Source: Alphaproteobacteria bacterium | Lineage (GTDB): Bacteria > Pseudomonadota > Alphaproteobacteria > Rhizobiales > Devosiaceae | Direction of reading: 5' to 3' | Assembly (NCBI GenBank): GCA_018828145.1 | Contig: JAHJWO010000017.1 | Location: forward strand, 62,001-126,000 | DNA: 64,000 nt | Part shown: positions 3,519-8,949 of the stretch, piece by piece | Layout of the letters: every line of letters starts with the position of its first letter | How positions within the stretch are numbered: position 1 is the first letter of the stretch | Translations under genes and position numbers: made by a program | The notes under the pieces: generated by a model | Database searches by the model: none | Told to the model about the DNA's origin: nothing | What the model saw: only the letters and a program-made list of their open reading frames with translations

Positions 3519-4487
3519 TTGTCGGAGAGCGTTGCGATGCACGCGAAAGTCATCATCATCGGTTCCGGTCCGGCCGGCTACACCGCTGCGATCTACGCGG
3601 CGCGCGCCATGCTGGAGCCCGTGATGATCCAGGGTCTGCAGCCCGGCGGCCAGCTGACCATCACCACCGATGTCGAGAACTATCCCGGCTTTGCCGACGT
3701 CATCCAGGGCCCCTGGCTCATGGACCAGATGAAGGCCCAGGCCGAGCATGTCGGCACCAGGATCGTCAATGATCTCATCGTCAGCGTCGATCTCGACCGC
3801 CGTCCCTTCGTGCTGACCGGCGACAGCGGCGACATCTACACCGCCGACAGCCTGATCATCGCGACCGGCGCCCAGGCCAAATGGCTGGGCCTGCCCAGCG
3901 AGCAGAAGTTCCAGGGCTTCGGCGTGTCCGCCTGCGCCACCTGCGACGGCTTCTTTTATCGCAACAAGGAAGTTCTGGTGGTCGGCGGCGGCAATACCGC
4001 GGTCGAGGAAGCCCTGTTCCTAACCAATTTCGCCTCCAAGGTGATTCTGGTGCATCGCCGCAGCGAATTCCGCGCCGAGCGCATCCTGCAGGATCGCCTG
4101 TTCAAGCATGCCAAGATCGAAGTGCGCTGGAACACCGAGATCGCCGATATCGGCGGCTCTGCGATGCCACCCTCGGTCAATTCGGTGACCCTGCGCGACA
4201 TTGCGGCCAACCGCACCTATGAGCAGCCCATCGACGGCATCTTCATCGCCATCGGCCACGCACCGGCCACCGCGATCTTTGCCGGCAAGCTCGACATGAA
4301 GCCGGGCGGCTACCTGCAGGTGAAGGCCGGGACCACCGAAACCAACGTTCCCGGGGTCTTTGCTGCCGGTGATGTGACTGATGATGTTTACCGTCAGGCA
4401 ATCACTGCCGCAGGCATGGGTTGCATGGCGGCGCTGGAAGCCGAACGATACCTGGCCGAACACGAACTTGCCGAAGCGGCGGAGTAG
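3519..4487 (+). CDS. trxB: Thioredoxin-disulfide reductase
   Basis: Cytoplasmic flavoenzyme passing electrons from NADPH through FAD to thioredoxin. The 322-residue length is normal. Motifs in order are the FAD-binding GSGPAGYTAA near residue 15, the redox pair CATC followed by DGFFY near residue 150, the NADPH-binding VGGGNTAVEEA, and the C-terminal GVFAAGDVTDD. Start choice is open: TTG at 3519 has GAGGAG at 3504-3509 (9 nt spacing) and the in-frame ATG at 3537 has only GGAG. The TTG is used here for its better ribosome site. The neighbour lsrB encodes a regulator linked to redox stress in rhizobia. Confidence 0.95.
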   Translation: MSESVAMHAKVIIIGSGPAGYTAAIYAARAMLEPVMIQGLQPGGQLTITTDVENYPGFADVIQGPWLMDQMKAQAEHVGTRIVNDLIVSVDLDRRPFVLTGDSGDIYTADSLIIATGAQAKWLGLPSEQKFQGFGVSACATCDGFFYRNKEVLVVGGGNTAVEEALFLTNFASKVILVHRRSEFRAERILQDRLFKHAKIEVRWNTEIADIGGSAMPPSVNSVTLRDIAANRTYEQPIDGIFIAIGHAPATAIFAGKLDMKPGGYLQVKAGTTETNVPGVFAAGDVTDDVYRQAITAAGMGCMAALEAERYLAEHELAEAAE

Positions 4488-4603: not shown

Positions 4604-5497
4604 ATGCTCGACTGGGACAAGCTCCGGATCTTCCACACCGCCGCCGAGTCGGGCAGTTTCACCCATGCCGCCGAAAAGCTCGGCATGAGCCAGTCGGCCG
4701 TGTCCCGCCAGATTTCCGCGCTGGAAGACGATCTCGGCCTCAAGCTCTTCATCCGCCATGCCCGCGGCCTCGTCCTCACCGAAGTCGGTGAACAGCTGTT
4801 CCGCACTGCGCACCGCATGCATTGGGAGCTGCAGCAGGTCGAAACCCAGATGTCCGAAAGCCAGGATGTCCCGACCGGCCCGCTCATCGTTACCACCACT
4901 GTAGGTATCGGCTCGACCTGGCTGTCGTCGCGGCTCGACGAATTCCTCAAGCTCTATCCGCTGATCCAGCTCGAAATCCGCCTGAACGACGCCGAGCTCG
5001 ACCTGGCCATGCGCGAGGCCGACGTGGCTATCCGCCTGCATCGCCCCAACCAGTCGGAAATGATCCAGCGCAAGCTGTTCACGGTGCACAACCACTTCTA
5101 CGCATCCAATGCCTATATCGACGATCACGGCATGCCCTCGAGCGCCGAACAGCTCGACAATCACCGCATCATCAGCTTCGGCGAGCCGGTGCCGTCCTAT
5201 CTGGGCGACATCAACTTCCTCGAGCGCATGGGGCGCACCGATTCCAGCCCGCGCCGCGCCGCCCTCAAGGTCAATGCGATCTACGGCATGATGCAGGCCT
5301 GCCGCGCCGGCATCGGCATCGCCATGCTGCCCGACTATGTCACCGAAAAGGAAGACGATCTCATCCAAGTCCTCCCCGAGATCGAGCTGCCTGCCTACGA
5401 AGCCTATTTCGTCTATCCGCCGGCCCTCAAGAACTCCAAGCGGGTCGGCGTCTTCCGCGACTTCCTCGTCGCCAAGGCGAGAGAGTGGAGCTTCTAG
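4604..5497 (+). CDS. lsrB: LysR-family regulator of the LsrB/VtlR group
   Basis: LysR-type transcription factor, 297 residues. The N-terminal winged helix begins MLDWDKLRIFHTAAESGSF and contains SQSAVSRQISALEDDLG, closely matching the LsrB (Sinorhizobium) and VtlR (Brucella) group. The rest is a periplasmic-binding-protein-like effector domain. The assignment is strengthened by its place directly after trxB. Established knowledge: Brucella VtlR activates the small RNA abcR2. Inference here: one gene downstream lie three small-RNA promoters sharing a T-N11-A dyad of the kind LysR proteins bind, so this protein is the best candidate activator. Orthology is judged by eye from the N-terminus and gene order. 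Confidence 0.88.
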   Translation: MLDWDKLRIFHTAAESGSFTHAAEKLGMSQSAVSRQISALEDDLGLKLFIRHARGLVLTEVGEQLFRTAHRMHWELQQVETQMSESQDVPTGPLIVTTTVGIGSTWLSSRLDEFLKLYPLIQLEIRLNDAELDLAMREADVAIRLHRPNQSEMIQRKLFTVHNHFYASNAYIDDHGMPSSAEQLDNHRIISFGEPVPSYLGDINFLERMGRTDSSPRRAALKVNAIYGMMQACRAGIGIAMLPDYVTEKEDDLIQVLPEIELPAYEAYFVYPPALKNSKRVGVFRDFLVAKAREWSF

Positions 5498-5500
5498 CAG

Positions 5501-5566
5501 TCCCGCAGTGCAAATCGCGCCAGTGGCACGATTTGAGGCTGGAAGGCCATGAGGCCTATGGCCGAA
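5501..5566. repeat. Dispersed palindromic element, family B, copy 1
   Basis: About 65 bp between lsrB and the HAD gene. It starts TCCCGCAG, then has the imperfect palindrome AAATCGCGCCAGTGGCACGA extended by TTT, then a GGCC-rich tail. A close copy lies at 7161-7217 and the palindrome core recurs at 31259-31284. It has no coding content and resembles a REP-type extragenic element. Confidence 0.7.
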
Positions 5567-5604
5567 TGACGGAGCACGTCCTTCCATAAGCAAGGGTCAC
5601 GCCC

Positions 5605-6324
5605 ATGCCCATCACCACCATCGCCCTCGATGCCGATGACACGCTCTGGCAGAACGAGCAGTTCTTCCGCCTGACCGAGCAGCGCTTCGCCGATCTGCTC
5701 AGGGACTATACCGACGCACCCGATCTCACCGACCGGCTGATCGCCTCCGTCACCAGGAACCTCTCCTTCTATGGCTTCGGCATGAAGGGGTTTGCCCTGT
5801 CCATGGTGGAGACCGCGCTCGACGTAACCGACCATCGCGTGCCCGGGACGGTGATTGCCGAAATCCTCGCCGCCGGACGCGAACTGCTGACCTACCCCAT
5901 CGAGACCCTGCCCTATGTCGACCAGACACTCGACCAATTGCAGCAGACCCATCGCCTGATCCTGGTCACCAAGGGCGATGTATTCGACCAGGAGCGGAAA
6001 TTGGCCGCCTCCGGCCTTGCCGACTACTTCGCCGCCATCGAGATCGTTGCCGACAAGAACGCCGCCACCTATGCGCGCATCTTCGAGCGCCATACCGATG
6101 GGCCGAAACACACCGTCATGGTCGGCAATTCCCTGCGGTCCGATATCCTGCCCGCATTGGAGGCCGGCAGCTTTGCCGTCCATGTCCCGCACGACCTGAC
6201 CTGGTCCTACGAACATGCCGAGGAACCGGTCGACGAACCCCGCTATGCCAGAATCGACCATCTGGGCGAGCTCGCAGGCGCCCTTGCCGGCTTCGAGGCA
6301 AAGGTCCAGGCCGCCAGGGTTTGA
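5605..6324 (+). CDS. HAD-superfamily hydrolase
   Basis: Predicted cytoplasmic phosphatase of the haloacid dehalogenase superfamily, 239 residues. Motif I is ALDADDTLW near residue 9 (nucleophile Asp), motif II is LVTKGD, and the acidic motif IV is VGNSLRSDILPALEAG. A helical cap lies between motifs I and II. The substrate is not recognisable. It lies between lsrB and the small-RNA array on the same strand. The next feature downstream is the first small-RNA promoter region, about 70 bases past the stop. Confidence 0.85.
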   Translation: MPITTIALDADDTLWQNEQFFRLTEQRFADLLRDYTDAPDLTDRLIASVTRNLSFYGFGMKGFALSMVETALDVTDHRVPGTVIAEILAAGRELLTYPIETLPYVDQTLDQLQQTHRLILVTKGDVFDQERKLAASGLADYFAAIEIVADKNAATYARIFERHTDGPKHTVMVGNSLRSDILPALEAGSFAVHVPHDLTWSYEHAEEPVDEPRYARIDHLGELAGALAGFEAKVQAARV

Positions 6325-6396
6325 TCCCGCAAGGATCGACGATTTCGTCCATAGTCGTTTGATTTATCACGATTATTCCAAATCGCATGCACTCGC

Positions 6397-6451
6397 TGCA
6401 TAGCTTGTATGCTGCCTGCCCAATTGTTGGGCACGATCAACCCTCCTATAT
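6397..6451 (+). promoter_or_regulatory. Promoter of small RNA A with LysR-type T-N11-A dyad
   Basis: The dyad GCATA-GCTTG-TATGC at 6398-6412 is a perfect inverted repeat. T6397 and A6409 give a T-N11-A LysR signature. It is followed by TTGTTG at 6424-6429, a 16-nt spacer and CTATAT at 6446-6451. The first T of TGCATAGC lies exactly 51 nt before the A of ATAT, the same distance as in the promoters at 6594 and 7265. Proposed activator: LsrB. Confidence 0.65.
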
Positions 6452-6457
6452 GCCCGC

Positions 6458-6575
6458 ATACACAGCGGGTGCGTTCTCCTCCCTCCCTTGCGCCCTGCTG
6501 CGTTCCCTCCTTGCGGGACCTGTTCCCGCAACTTTGTGGCTCCGCTCTCCCCTCGAGCGGGGCCACATTTTTTTC
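6458..6575 (+). ncRNA. AbcR-like trans-acting small RNA (RNA A)
   Basis: Predicted transcript of about 117 nt from the CTATAT promoter to the terminator. Hairpin 1 pairs GGGTGCG (6467-6473) with TGCGCCC (6489-6495), extended by CAGC/GCTG, and exposes the loop TTCTCCTCCCTCCCT, an anti-Shine-Dalgarno sequence. A single-stranded TTCCCTCCT follows at 6503-6511. Hairpin 2 pairs TGCGGGA with TCCCGCA (6512-6530), then comes the terminator. The length, two CU-rich anti-SD segments and three stem-loops fit the Rhizobiales AbcR (alpha-r15) family, which is Hfq-dependent and represses ABC transporter mRNAs. The nearness of lsrB supports this, since the Brucella orthologue VtlR controls abcR2. The family call is by architecture, not alignment. 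Confidence 0.7.
6536..6574 (+). terminator. Intrinsic terminator of RNA A
   Basis: The stem GTGGCTCCGCTC pairs with GAGCGGGGCCAC (12 bp, one G-U pair) around a 7-nt loop, followed by ATTTTTTT. Confidence 0.88.
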
Positions 6576-6593
6576 TCGGCCCCGTGCACCAAC

Positions 6594-6649
6594 TGCATGG
6601 CTGACATGTCAGACATTGTATTGTCGACTGGCCCGATAGAGTTCATATT
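6594..6649 (+). promoter_or_regulatory. Promoter of small RNA B with the shared dyad
   Basis: TGCATGGC-TGACATGT at 6594-6609, with half sites GCATG and CATGT and T6594-N11-A6606. Then TTGTCG at 6621-6626, a 17-nt spacer and CATATT at 6644-6649. The distance from the first T to ATATT is 51 nt, identical to the promoters of RNAs A and C. Confidence 0.65.
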
Positions 6650-6654
6650 AACGG

Positions 6655-6843
6655 GGTCGCTGAGGCGTGCTCCGTATCCTCCTCCCTCGGACCCCGTATC
6701 GCGACACCGAACCGAGATCGTATCCTCCTCCCTCGATCAAGGTTCACTGGCAGAGCGCATATCCTCCTCCCTTGCTCTCTGCCCCACTTTGGATTTGGCT
6801 TCGGCCCAGTCATCAGCCCTGTCTTCGGACAGGGCTTTTTTTT
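6655..6843 (+). ncRNA. CCUCCUCCC-motif small RNA with three motif loops (RNA B)
   Basis: Predicted transcript of about 190 nt. The 13-nt loop TATCCTCCTCCCT occurs three times, each closed by a different stem: TCCG/CGGA (loop 6675-6687), GATCG/CGATC (loop 6721-6733), and GCA/TGC extended by GGCAGAG/CTCTGCC (loop 6760-6772). Stem bases differ while loops are identical, so the loops look selected. A GGC-TTCG-GCC tetraloop hairpin and a terminator follow. CCUCCUCCC loops are the hallmark of the CcsR/cuckoo small RNAs first described in Rhodobacter, which usually have two such loops. RNA C at 7326 is a paralogue with the same layout. Likely role: masking ribosome binding sites of target mRNAs. Confidence 0.85.
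6815..6843 (+). terminator. Intrinsic terminator of RNA B
   Basis: AGCCCTGTC-TTCG-GACAGGGCT is a perfect 9-bp stem with a TTCG loop, followed by seven further T residues. Confidence 0.93.
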
Positions 6844-6952
6844 GCTCATCACGCGACGCCGGGGCCTATTCGCGCTTGGGGGGGGGCAGCAACGCAACGA
6901 TCTGCTCACGAGCGCGTTACCGAACGCGCGATCCATGCGCCTGGAGAATTCC

Positions 6953-7120
6953 GTGGGCACTTCCGTCCTTATCAGCATCCTGATCACCTTCCTGGTGATC
7001 GTCCTCATCCTCTGGCTGGTTCAGCGCCTGCCGGTCGAGGCCAAGATCCGCCAGATCATTCAGATCGTGGTCATCGTCATCGGCATCATCGCCATGCTGA
7101 AGTATCTCGCCGTCTTCTAG
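6953..7120 (+). CDS. Small single-domain membrane protein (Thivi_2564-like)
   Basis: A 55-residue protein, mostly two hydrophobic helices (ISILITFLVIVLILWLV and IIQIVVIVIGIIAMLKYL) around a short charged turn RLPVEAKIRQ. The pattern resembles the small Thivi_2564-type inner-membrane proteins, whose function is unknown. The GTG at 6953 has GGAG at 6943-6946 with 6 nt spacing. An in-frame ATG at 6935 lacks a good ribosome site. The gene lies between RNAs B and C on the same strand. RNA B has its own terminator, so this gene probably needs its own promoter, which I could not identify. Confidence 0.7.
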   Translation: MGTSVLISILITFLVIVLILWLVQRLPVEAKIRQIIQIVVIVIGIIAMLKYLAVF

Positions 7121-7160
7121 GCGACGCCAAGACTGAATTCGCTCCGTGAACCTGGAGTCA

Positions 7161-7217
7161 TCCCGCAGGGCAAATCGCTCCACTGGAGCGATTTGAAGCC
7201 TCTGGCCGTATGGGCCG
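7161..7217. repeat. Dispersed palindromic element, family B, copy 2
   Basis: TCCCGCAGGG followed by the perfect palindrome AAATCGCTCCA-CTGGAGCGATTT arranged as two arms, then a GGCC-rich tail, matching copy 1 at 5501. It lies directly upstream of the RNA C promoter. Confidence 0.72.
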
Positions 7218-7264
7218 GGGCCCGCCCCCAGCGCGTCGGCTTGACAATTTGTCGCTGTGCAAAA

Positions 7265-7319
7265 TGCATGGCAGTCATGTTGACCTATGCATTGCTGACC
7301 AAACGGTCAAAACCTATAT
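7265..7319 (+). promoter_or_regulatory. Promoter of small RNA C with the shared dyad
   Basis: TGCATGGC-AGTCATGT at 7265-7280, with half sites GCATG and CATGT and T7265-N11-A7277. Then TTGCTG at 7292-7297, a 16-nt spacer and CTATAT at 7314-7319. The first T is again 51 nt before ATATT. Confidence 0.65.
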
Positions 7320-7325
7320 TGCCAA

Positions 7326-7521
7326 TGTCGCTGGTGAAGCCGCTCCGTATCCTCCTCCCTCGGACCCGCTTCTTGCGACACCGGATCTCGGCCGTATCCT
7401 CCTCCCTCGGCCTGGGTCCAACCGGTTCGGCGCATATCCTCCTCCCTTGCGCTGGGCCATACTTACGATTTGGCTTCGGCCCTATCATTAGGCTCCAACT
7501 TCGGTTGGAGCCTCTTTTTTT
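7326..7521 (+). ncRNA. CCUCCUCCC-motif small RNA with three motif loops (RNA C)
   Basis: Predicted transcript of about 196 nt and a paralogue of RNA B. The same loop TATCCTCCTCCCT appears three times: 7348-7360 closed by TCCG/CGGA with an outer GAAGC/GCTTC, 7395-7407 closed by GGCCG/CGGCC, and 7435-7447 closed by GCGCA/TGCGC. The region GATTTGGCTTCGGCCC before the terminator is identical in RNAs B and C. Stems have diverged with base pairing retained while loops are unchanged, which argues for duplication followed by selection on the loops. Confidence 0.85.
7490..7521 (+). terminator. Intrinsic terminator of RNA C
   Basis: AGGCTCCAAC-TTCG-GTTGGAGCCT is a perfect 10-bp stem followed by CTTTTTTT. 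Confidence 0.93.
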
Positions 7522-7536
7522 GCCCATTTGCGAATC

Positions 7537-7591
7537 TGCATGGCAGCACTTCCCATTGCGCGTTTGTGCGTTTCCACCCGGCATAGGATAG
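7537..7591 (+). promoter_or_regulatory. Possible promoter of small RNA D with a half dyad
   Basis: TGCATGGCAG at 7537-7546 matches the left half of the dyad before RNA C, but the right half (ACTTC) has diverged and the T-N11-A rule fails. TTGTGC at 7563-7568 and GGATAG at 7586-7591, with 17 nt between, are possible -35 and -10 boxes. This is weaker than the other three promoters. Confidence 0.35.
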
Positions 7592-7597
7592 TGGCTT

Positions 7598-7703
7598 TGA
7601 CCAGTTTAGCGGCGGTCGTGGCGCCGCTCCTCCAAGGTCAGTCGCTTCGGCTGCTGACCCCTGGGCCCTGCCCATCCCCTCGGGCGGGGCCTTTTCTATT
7701 TTT
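7598..7703 (+). ncRNA. Possible fourth small RNA of the array (RNA D)
   Basis: Predicted RNA of about 105 nt. Hairpin AGCGGCG/CGCCGCT lies at 7608-7628, a single-stranded CTCCTCC at 7627-7633, hairpin GGTCAG/CTGACC with an inner GC-TTCG-GC at 7636-7659, and a terminator at 7664-7703. It has no TATCCTCCTCCCT loops but keeps a CUCCUCC anti-SD element. No gene precedes the terminator, so an RNA gene is the simplest reading. It could instead be a leader remnant. Confidence 0.5.
7664..7703 (+). terminator. Intrinsic terminator of RNA D
   Basis: GGCCCTGCCC pairs with GGGCGGGGCC (10 bp, one U-G pair), followed by TTTTCTATTTTT. Confidence 0.82.
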
Positions 7704-7839
7704 CGGCAGCATTTTCGCCCCGCCCCGGCAAATTCTGCCGCGCGACGGTGCAAACGCCCCGACTTTCCCTTGATTCATCAGCGTTTTTTGTCGGCACGCA
7801 GCTTGCAAGGCGGTCTCTGACCGATCGCAGGAGCGTCCG

Positions 7840-8949
7840 ATGGTTGCCATCAATACGGGCTATTCAACCAACACCTATTATCAGGCAGCGGCTTCGAACC
7901 AGGCGGCCGCCACCGCCGCCAGCGCCAAGACCGCGACAACGGCCACGACCACCACCGAGCAGGCCGCGACATCGGTCACCCTCTCCGACGCCGCACTGGC
8001 GGCCCTGGCGACAAAGGACTTTGCCACTGTAGTGGCCGACGCCCGCGCCAAGCTGGCCACGCTGCTGACGGAGGCTGACCGCACCTCGCCCCTGCAGGAC
8101 GACAAGCTGGCGCTCGACCTCTCCAGTCTCGATGCCCGCGAACTCTTCGCCATGGCGAGCGACGACAGCTTCACCGAGGACGAGCGCACGGCTGCCGGCC
8201 TCGAAATGCAGCGCCGCTTCGAGGCAGCCCTTGCCGGCCCTGCCGCTCTCGCCAAGGTCACCGGCAATCTCACCGGACTTTACAAGGCCGCCGCGGAATA
8301 TCTCGATAGTCTGGGCCCCGAGGAAAAGGCCGGTGCTGACTGGATTGCCGGCCGCGCTGCCGTCACCGACGCGCTCAAGCAGTTGCAGTCCGATCCCAAG
8401 ACCATGCCCGATGCCGGCGAAGAGGACCCCGTGGCGCTCTACCTCGCTCTGGTCGAGGCCGGCGAGACCATCAAGCCCACCGACATCGCCGATGTCGCCG
8501 CCACCGCCCGCAAGACGCTGGACAGCCTCTATGCCGACGCGATCAAGGCCGGCAAGGCGCCCACTTTCAACAAGACGACCACCGTCGGCACCTACATCGA
8601 CCTGTCAAAGTTCGACAGCCGCAGCCTCTCGGCCATCGCGCTCAATACCGGCGACAAGTTCACCACCGAAGAAGTCCGCCACGCCGAGGCAGCCCTGCGC
8701 AGCAAGAGTGGCGCCGCCCTGCTGGCCGGCTTCCAGAACGCCGCCAAGTCCAGTGATCCCACGGCCTTCAGCCAGAACATCATGGCCATCTATGCCTCGA
8801 TGAGCGCCGAGGAACGCCAGGCCGCCGGCTGGAGCGACCAGTTCTACCAGGCCGCCGCGGCCAGCTACGAATCCACCAACCAGCTGCTGCAGATGTTCGC
8901 TGACGCCGGCGGCGACAGCACCGGATTCTTGAGCTGGATGGGAAAGTAG
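7840..8949 (+). CDS. Hypothetical protein, Ala/Thr-rich N-terminus, helical
   Basis: I do not recognise this 369-residue protein. Residues 1-50 are low-complexity Ala/Thr/Gln, followed by an acidic, helix-rich body. There is no signal peptide, membrane segment or Cys-rich site. Phrases such as LSSLDARELFAMASDDSFT and LSKFDSRSLSAIALNTGDKFT look like internal homology: each has Leu-Ser, then aspartate, then Arg-rich and Ala-rich parts followed by an acidic run and an ER-hand-like segment, suggesting two related halves. The ATG has AGGAG 7 nt upstream. The gene follows RNA D and has no evident operon partner. Confidence 0.8.
   Translation: MVAINTGYSTNTYYQAAASNQAAATAASAKTATTATTTTEQAATSVTLSDAALAALATKDFATVVADARAKLATLLTEADRTSPLQDDKLALDLSSLDARELFAMASDDSFTEDERTAAGLEMQRRFEAALAGPAALAKVTGNLTGLYKAAAEYLDSLGPEEKAGADWIAGRAAVTDALKQLQSDPKTMPDAGEEDPVALYLALVEAGETIKPTDIADVAATARKTLDSLYADAIKAGKAPTFNKTTTVGTYIDLSKFDSRSLSAIALNTGDKFTTEEVRHAEAALRSKSGAALLAGFQNAAKSSDPTAFSQNIMAIYASMSAEERQAAGWSDQFYQAAAASYESTNQLLQMFADAGGDSTGFLSWMGK

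Follow-up and report, generated by a model that had tools for sequence, protein, structure and literature searches.

What do the 1.3 kb that follow lsrB and one intervening gene encode in a Devosiaceae genome, where four intrinsic terminators lie in close succession, and does a single regulator govern them? The locus sits on contig C8 of this 4.43-Mb genome, within the 64-kb stretch presented above (the window throughout), and drew attention when a sequence-only reading proposed a tandem array of four small RNAs (sRNAs) under one activator. We consider it very probable that the array is a regulon of the LysR-type regulator LsrB (VtlR) gathered in one place, in which LsrB-driven promoters would yield four terminated sRNAs whose anti-Shine-Dalgarno (aSD) stretches would block ribosome-binding sites. 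The analysis draws on sequence, geometry, conservation, predicted structure, covariation and synteny, and the features that carry it are as follows.

4604..5497, + strand: lsrB/vtlR orthologue, LysR-type regulator of 297 aa (PF00126 and PF03466)
6397..6412, + strand: candidate LsrB box 1, TGCATAGCTTGTATGC, GCATA-N5-TATGC (direct reading, script re-check and genome-wide pattern)
6423..6451, + strand: predicted promoter 1, -35 ATTGTT (6423-6428), 17 nt, -10 CTATAT (6446-6451)
6458..6574, + strand: RNA1, AbcR-type sRNA, 5′ end predicted (fold, terminator and model R1)
6594..6609, + strand: candidate LsrB box 2, TGCATGGCTGACATGT, GCATG-N5-CATGT
6620..6648, + strand: predicted promoter 2, -35 ATTGTC, 17 nt, -10 TCATAT
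6656..6843, + strand: RNA2, alpha-r14-like sRNA (three CCUCCUCCC hairpins, then a small fourth one and the terminator), predicted 5′ end
7265..7280, + strand: candidate LsrB box 3, TGCATGGCAGTCATGT, GCATG-N5-CATGT
7291..7319, + strand: predicted promoter 3, -35 ATTGCT, 17 nt, -10 CTATAT
7327..7521, + strand: RNA3, another alpha-r14-like sRNA of the same layout (three CCUCCUCCC hairpins, a fourth small one, terminator), predicted 5′ end
7537..7544, + strand: half box TGCATGGC, the left half of an LsrB box, preceding RNA4
7563..7591, + strand: predicted promoter 4, -35 TTTGTG, 17 nt, -10 GGATAG (TTG at +27 and A at +51 from the half box)
7598..7697, + strand: RNA4, short, two hairpins flanking a single-stranded CUCCUCCAAGG, then a terminator, predicted 5′ end

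A terminator scan recovered the four terminators where the sequence-only reading had placed them, with stems ending at 6567, 6836, 7513 and 7692; their number by itself is unremarkable, as shuffling of 5500-8500 gives a mean of 2.0 with a standard deviation of 1.3. Direct reading and a script likewise showed the positions given for the promoter elements to be exact: the three dyads at 6397, 6594 and 7265 are all T-N11-A, the ATAT elements at 6448, 6645 and 7316 each lie 51 nt past the box T, and the fourth promoter, at 7537, retains the left half box only. In each of the four promoters, even the one behind the half box, TTG lies at +27 and the -10 A at +51 from the box T, and the -35/-10 gap is 17 nt. 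Given an RNA1 start at 6458, box 1 spans -61 to -49, and the remaining starts, 7-8 nt past the -10 element, give about the same figure; the sigma-70 promoter of abcR1, CTTGAC-N17-CTATAT, likewise has its LsrB box at -61 to -49 (PMC8844928). Dyads of the form GCATR-N5-YAT number 13 in the window against 8.0 per 64 kb in 60 first-order Markov copies, and those with ATAT at +51 number three, precisely the ones in the array, against 0.017 expected from the same copies. Across the whole genome, the fixed pattern of box, TTG at +27 and -10 AT has three matches, all in the array, and its reversed form has none. This pattern replaced a looser one with a floating -10 element, which matched ten genomic places, only three of them in the array. 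A sigma-70 scan found no Escherichia-type promoter.

The same fixed pattern was applied to 41 genomes of the genus, with hits counted from the listing, and yielded 137 matches, 115 in arrays and 22 elsewhere, the reversed control giving none. Three in-array matches are present in 35 genomes, four in one and two in three, and the genomes G032 and G064 have neither a pattern match nor CCUCCUCCC pairs. The expected conservation of dyad and spacing in related genomes is thus borne out, and the box and spacing geometry, genome-wide and across the genus, lends computational support to the single activator that had been proposed. In 38 of the 39 genus arrays, the fetched stretch also holds lsrB; the array of G061 lies on a 3.7-kb contig without it, and a stray extra copy without lsrB, L111, was excluded from the 39. 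A second, overlapping and therefore not independent set comprised 80 named lsrB loci from Devosia, Pelagibacterium, Maritalea, Arsenicitalea, Cucumibacter and relatives named to order or class, of which nine with less than 3 kb downstream were left out. A box with TTG at +27 follows lsrB in all 71 remaining loci, and a CCUCCUCCC triple is present in 61, each of which has at least one triple with a box of its own; the ten loci without a triple include two of Maritalea porphyrae, Cucumibacter and three Devosia metagenome genomes. Two genus genomes hold additional CCUCCUCCC RNAs that are not beside lsrB, at L111 (G006; 2551-2720) and L164 (G181).

The two central RNAs, RNA2 and RNA3, have fold z scores of -4.87 and -6.40, respectively. 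Over 31 sequences, 93.9% of cells are paired as opposed to 80.1% after shuffling and 18 of 28 pairs have changed on both sides, neither value being reached in any of 500 shuffles; sliding one strand by a single position cuts the pairing to 50 or 36%. Both RNAs show the alpha-r14 design of three hairpins, each with an unpaired CCUCCUCCC, on variable stems, and by sequence both have an LsrB box upstream of a sigma-70-type promoter; RNAs similar to this design are described in PMC3927594. The Rfam ar14 model (RF02344) gives 33.0 bits on RNA3 and 31.7 on RNA2, under its gathering score of 58.8, and we therefore name them alpha-r14-like, an assignment that the predicted structures and their covariation make well supported. 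Since open frames run across the RNAs, RNA2 and RNA3 might double as coding sequences for small peptides (SYPPPS-like repeats), comparable to the small open reading frames (ORFs) among VtlR targets in other genera; their stems, however, vary by compensatory substitutions and their inter-motif distances by single bases (45-49 and 38-41 nt), which breaks the frames and makes a coding function extremely unlikely.

The CcsR1 model also scores RNA3 below gathering, at 32.8 bits, and many CCUCCUCCC hairpins outside Devosiaceae lie 3′ of DUF1127 ORFs, both of which would fit a different origin, in which processing of a longer mRNA would release the CCUCCUCCC RNAs as CcsR-type fragments, just as a DUF1127 (ccaF1) transcript gives rise to CcsR1-4 in Rhodobacter. 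We consider such processing very unlikely here: the four DUF1127 matches of this genome lie on contigs C12, C16, C48 and C61 and none on C8, the inspected loci on C12 and C48 have no CCUCCUCCC within 800 nt 3′, and each array RNA has its own promoter-like sequence and terminator. In G156, the terminator loop of one alpha-r14-like RNA carries a fourth motif, an intermediate to the form found in other families. Sub-threshold matches to suhB/mmgR, anti-hemB, SorX/SorY, NsiR1 and others were attributed to likeness in terminators or C/U-rich stretches and dropped.

RNA1 is predicted to fold at -57.3 kcal/mol (z -9.1) into three stem-loops, with one aSD motif in the first loop and a second unpaired behind it. 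AbcR RNAs are described as three stem-loops with two unpaired CU-rich aSD motifs (PMC7143759), and RNA1 agrees with them both in this predicted layout and in its location beside lsrB with a box at -61 to -49 of its predicted start. Model R1, built from 24 genus sequences that are themselves among the 39 arrays scored, gives at least 69 bits in 38 of these; in 52 stretches from other families it has 18 matches of 11.7-27.4 bits (E up to 5 or 1), seven of which share coordinates with matches of the Rfam ar15 model (RF02345; two in G058 and one each in G045, G098, G113, G137 and G151). Because R1 finds these seven loci that RF02345 finds, we call RNA1 an AbcR homologue below Rfam detection rather than a member of Rfam ar15, which the model comparison leaves well supported. 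RNA4 (fold z -3.65) is predicted to form two hairpins flanking the single-stranded CUCCUCCAAGG, followed by its terminator; its model R3, built from 28 arrays, reaches at least 44.7 bits in 37 of the 39 genus arrays and in many of them matches RNA1 as well, and for this reason RNA4 looks like an AbcR-like derivative placed under a half box. R1 also gives 21-42 bits on RNA4 and on the 3′ parts of RNA2 and RNA3 in many arrays, a resemblance that suggests paralogy, although C-rich loops and terminators may explain it and we do not count it as proof. Together, covariance models and covariation support the proposed coexistence of an AbcR-type RNA with CCUCCUCCC-loop RNAs. In L092, RNA3 is trailed by a possible insertion element, presumably the start of an insertion-sequence transposase, and RNA4 lies about 1 kb beyond. 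L189 (G088; 139-606), next to lsrB in another family, has three evenly spaced C/U-rich units without a recognisable box, two of which R1 matches weakly.

The candidate regulator carries the LysR helix-turn-helix (HTH) and substrate domains and is flanked by two genes of interest for its identity.

3519..4487, + strand: trxB, thioredoxin-disulfide reductase, a synteny marker (TIGR01292, 402.9 bits against a cut-off of 343.45)
5605..6324, + strand: HAD-superfamily hydrolase ORF, which separates lsrB from the array (PF00702, E 2.2e-10)

An orthologue of 87-97% identity is present in 35 of 36 same-genus genomes (in two of them seen in part only), the closest paralogue in this genome is 31% identical, and 142 of the 150 genomes sampled from the order each contain a single match at E 1e-80 or better. 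Conservation is highest in the HTH, where 40-50 of 64-65 residues are identical to those of 16 other-family proteins. In Brucella, vtlR is preceded by a thioredoxin-disulfide reductase gene (PMC12595884), and here trxB likewise lies upstream of lsrB with an AbcR-type RNA downstream, so that synteny and HTH give good support to LsrB/VtlR as the probable array regulator. The sequence-only reading had named LsrB as well; synteny, HTH and box geometry make that part likely, and the direct adjacency it assumed did not hold, as the HAD-hydrolase ORF intervenes.

From rhizobial relatives we infer activation by LsrB, transcription and target pairing. LsrB, as a LysR-type activator, would bind the GCATR-N5-YATGY boxes, which lie at about -61 to -49 relative to each start, and recruit sigma-70 RNA polymerase from this class I position to three promoters, the fourth possibly being driven via its half site. 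The products would be four independently terminated sRNAs, with RNA1 of the AbcR type, RNA2 and RNA3 of the alpha-r14 or cuckoo type and RNA4 as the AbcR-like derivative, and their unpaired C/U-rich stretches would serve as aSD elements that pair with ribosome-binding sites and block translation, mainly of transporter and metabolic mRNAs.

How far this arrangement extends was examined in 150 genomes sampled from the order, with strict filters and few candidates scored per genome, so that absences are lower bounds. The RNA2/3 model matches 15 of them, namely all six of the array's own family and nine others. Each of the six has at least one match beside lsrB, and G181 has another elsewhere; in none of the nine is a match near lsrB, all lying on another contig or more than 1.4 Mb away. 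For the boxes, we chose 52 genomes from 40 other families, mostly one per family, among the 136 with an lsrB match. A box lies within 800 nt of lsrB in 27 of these, and in 21, from 17 families, it is accompanied by TTG at exactly +27. That offset is present in 22 of 30 other-family boxes, as compared with 1.45 boxes per set, 0.015 of them with the offset, in letter shuffles that preserve base composition only. The box/-35 geometry beside lsrB is thus common across the order and not universal, and because it recurs there in other families, the promoter unit looks ancestral by sequence; the gathering of alpha-r14-like RNAs into an lsrB-linked unit seems, on the same kind of evidence, special to Devosiaceae.

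Outside Devosiaceae, the wider association of LsrB with CCUCCUCCC RNAs is mixed. Among 11 CCUCCUCCC loci from nine other-family genomes, five (in G175, G058, G105, G164 and G146) have a plausibly placed box-like dyad upstream, none with TTG at +27, and the remaining six show either no dyad or one that lacks promoter geometry. Among the 30 fetched DUF1127 loci, eight genomes have DUF1127 ORFs followed by at least two CCUCCUCCC; three of these have a box (G105, G164 and G146) and five do not (G058, G131, G082, G182 and G159). In the former three, a box-like dyad, DUF1127 ORFs and CCUCCUCCC hairpins stand in one row (the other five have the last two only), with dyads lacking a +27 TTG and up to nine CCUCCUCCC at L153, L154, L156, L219, L220 and L222. 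The literature searched yielded no paper combining DUF1127 and CCUCCUCCC.

Several observations weigh against the array as an LsrB regulon of aSD RNAs. No box is found within 800 nt of lsrB in 25 of the 52 other-family genomes, or within 3 kb in 22. Box 2 fits the published VtlR box GCAT-N3-TG-N3-T, whereas boxes 1 and 3 are each one base off it; RNA4 is preceded by half a box only; and the 5′ ends of all four RNAs are predicted. A covariance search against Rfam, proposed earlier as a check, placed no family at gathering score in the window: ar14 remains sub-threshold on RNA2 and RNA3, and ar15 has no match in the whole genome and none at E≤10 in 6300-7800. Start codons behind the full GGGAGGAGG (before ATG) occur at five places against two for the reversed pattern, one of the five being what we take, by look only, to be an ABC sugar-transporter permease gene. 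Lastly, the window LsrB has V141 and V270 at the positions aligned to C144 and C273 of Agrobacterium tumefaciens LsrB, a pair proposed as its redox switch (PMC11975290). The pair is missing in all 35 genus proteins and in 15 of 16 other-family proteins, the sole exception being G058, whose Rfam ar15 score of 127 bits leads us to place it in Rhizobiaceae. We therefore read C144/C273, from these alignments, as the sensing feature of one lineage rather than as family-defining; the window LsrB itself has a single cysteine, C233.

The missing redox cysteines also bear on whether lsrB is a mere neighbour of real RNAs that are controlled by another LysR-type regulator, or by LsrB together with NtrC or another factor. 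This genome offers other candidates, with 22 matches to the LsrB protein at E 0.001 or better, lsrB included, and NtrC represses NfeR1 in Sinorhizobium meliloti (PMC10746234). Such control is nevertheless unlikely: the boxes resemble published LsrB/VtlR sites, 17 of 40 other families show the same box geometry next to lsrB, conservation of the protein is stronger in the HTH than outside it, and in G032, where no lsrB orthologue is present (best match 30% identical), boxes and CCUCCUCCC pairs are missing with it. LsrB thus remains the favoured activator of the array.

A broader evolutionary scenario would make LsrB at its root a dedicated aSD RNA switch in Hyphomicrobiales rather than a redox regulator. 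A rigid unit of box, TTG at +27 and -10 element at +51 would drive AbcR and alpha-r14 RNAs, and in some families boxes would precede DUF1127 mRNAs ending in CCUCCUCCC hairpins. Tandem copying beside lsrB would have produced AbcR and alpha-r14 as paralogues, in an array that persists in Devosiaceae and has dispersed in other families, and one lineage would have acquired the disulfide switch afterwards. Given the mixed evidence on boxes at other-family CCUCCUCCC/DUF1127 loci, we hold this scenario as tentative and somewhat doubtful.

The AbcR and CCUCCUCCC-loop families had been presented in the sequence-only reading as known only as separate systems, which proved incorrect. LsrB binds and activates abcR1 (PMC8844928); in S. 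meliloti it activates NfeR1, an alpha-r14 RNA with three CCUCCUCCC loops, by pull-down, electrophoretic mobility shift assay and reporter fusions, and co-activation of AbcR1 and NfeR1 is discussed in the same source (PMC10746234), so that an LsrB link between the two kinds of RNA is already published. Agrobacterium VtlR activates abcR1, vrsA and the small ORF atu1667 (PMC7486931), and Brucella VtlR activates AbcR2 and three DUF1127 genes (PMC12595884). What is new is the presence of both sRNA kinds in one lsrB-linked array in Devosiaceae (61 of 71 named loci), of which literature searches found no published account: none of the ten papers listed, out of 53 matching two of Devosia, AbcR and sRNA, names Devosia, and Devosia with LsrB matched one unrelated review.

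Like AbcR1 and AbcR2 (alpha-r15, RF02345) of Sinorhizobium, Agrobacterium and Brucella, RNA1 lies downstream of lsrB with a box at about -61 to -49, three stem-loops and two unpaired aSD motifs; unlike them, it falls below Rfam detection, is separated from lsrB by the HAD gene and stands in an array that adds three RNAs, two of another type. RNA2 and RNA3 share with NfeR1/alpha-r14 (RF02344) the three CCUCCUCCC-loop hairpins, the variable stems and the LsrB-type box upstream, but have their third motif in a hairpin of its own followed by a separate terminator, whereas in the other-family loci inspected the terminator loop carries the motif; they are also present in two copies beside lsrB rather than at a remote locus, and score below the Rfam cut-off. 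CcsR1-4 and cuckoo RNAs similarly have CCUCCUCCC hairpins, yet belong with DUF1127 genes in CIN1 loci and in Rhodobacter lie in an operon that has an RpoHI/RpoHII promoter (PMC10253847), in contrast to array transcripts that have no DUF1127 gene and have promoter-like sequences of their own. The VtlR-activated VrsA and atu1667 of A. tumefaciens have a VtlR box in common with the array (PMC7486931) and differ in their products and described genomic places.

In most Devosiaceae members, the array physically unites two sRNA families mostly studied apart, under promoters of identical geometry, so that a single deletion could test both their shared origin and how they divide their labour. It also allows two properties of LsrB to be separated, an sRNA promoter unit found in many families and a putative redox cysteine pair that is mostly missing, and provides natural promoter variants (full box, one-base variants and half box) for measuring LsrB activation.

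Of the remaining features, a 369-aa ORF 3′ of the array (7840-8949) has no Pfam or NCBIfam match at E 0.001. One further gene lies between RNA2 and RNA3, outside the RNA array itself.

6953..7120, + strand: small membrane protein ORF of the Thivi_2564 family, start uncertain (NF041949, 45.8 bits against a cut-off of 33)

Across genomes, the distance from the first motif of RNA2 to the first motif of RNA3 ranges from about 300 to 1020 nt.

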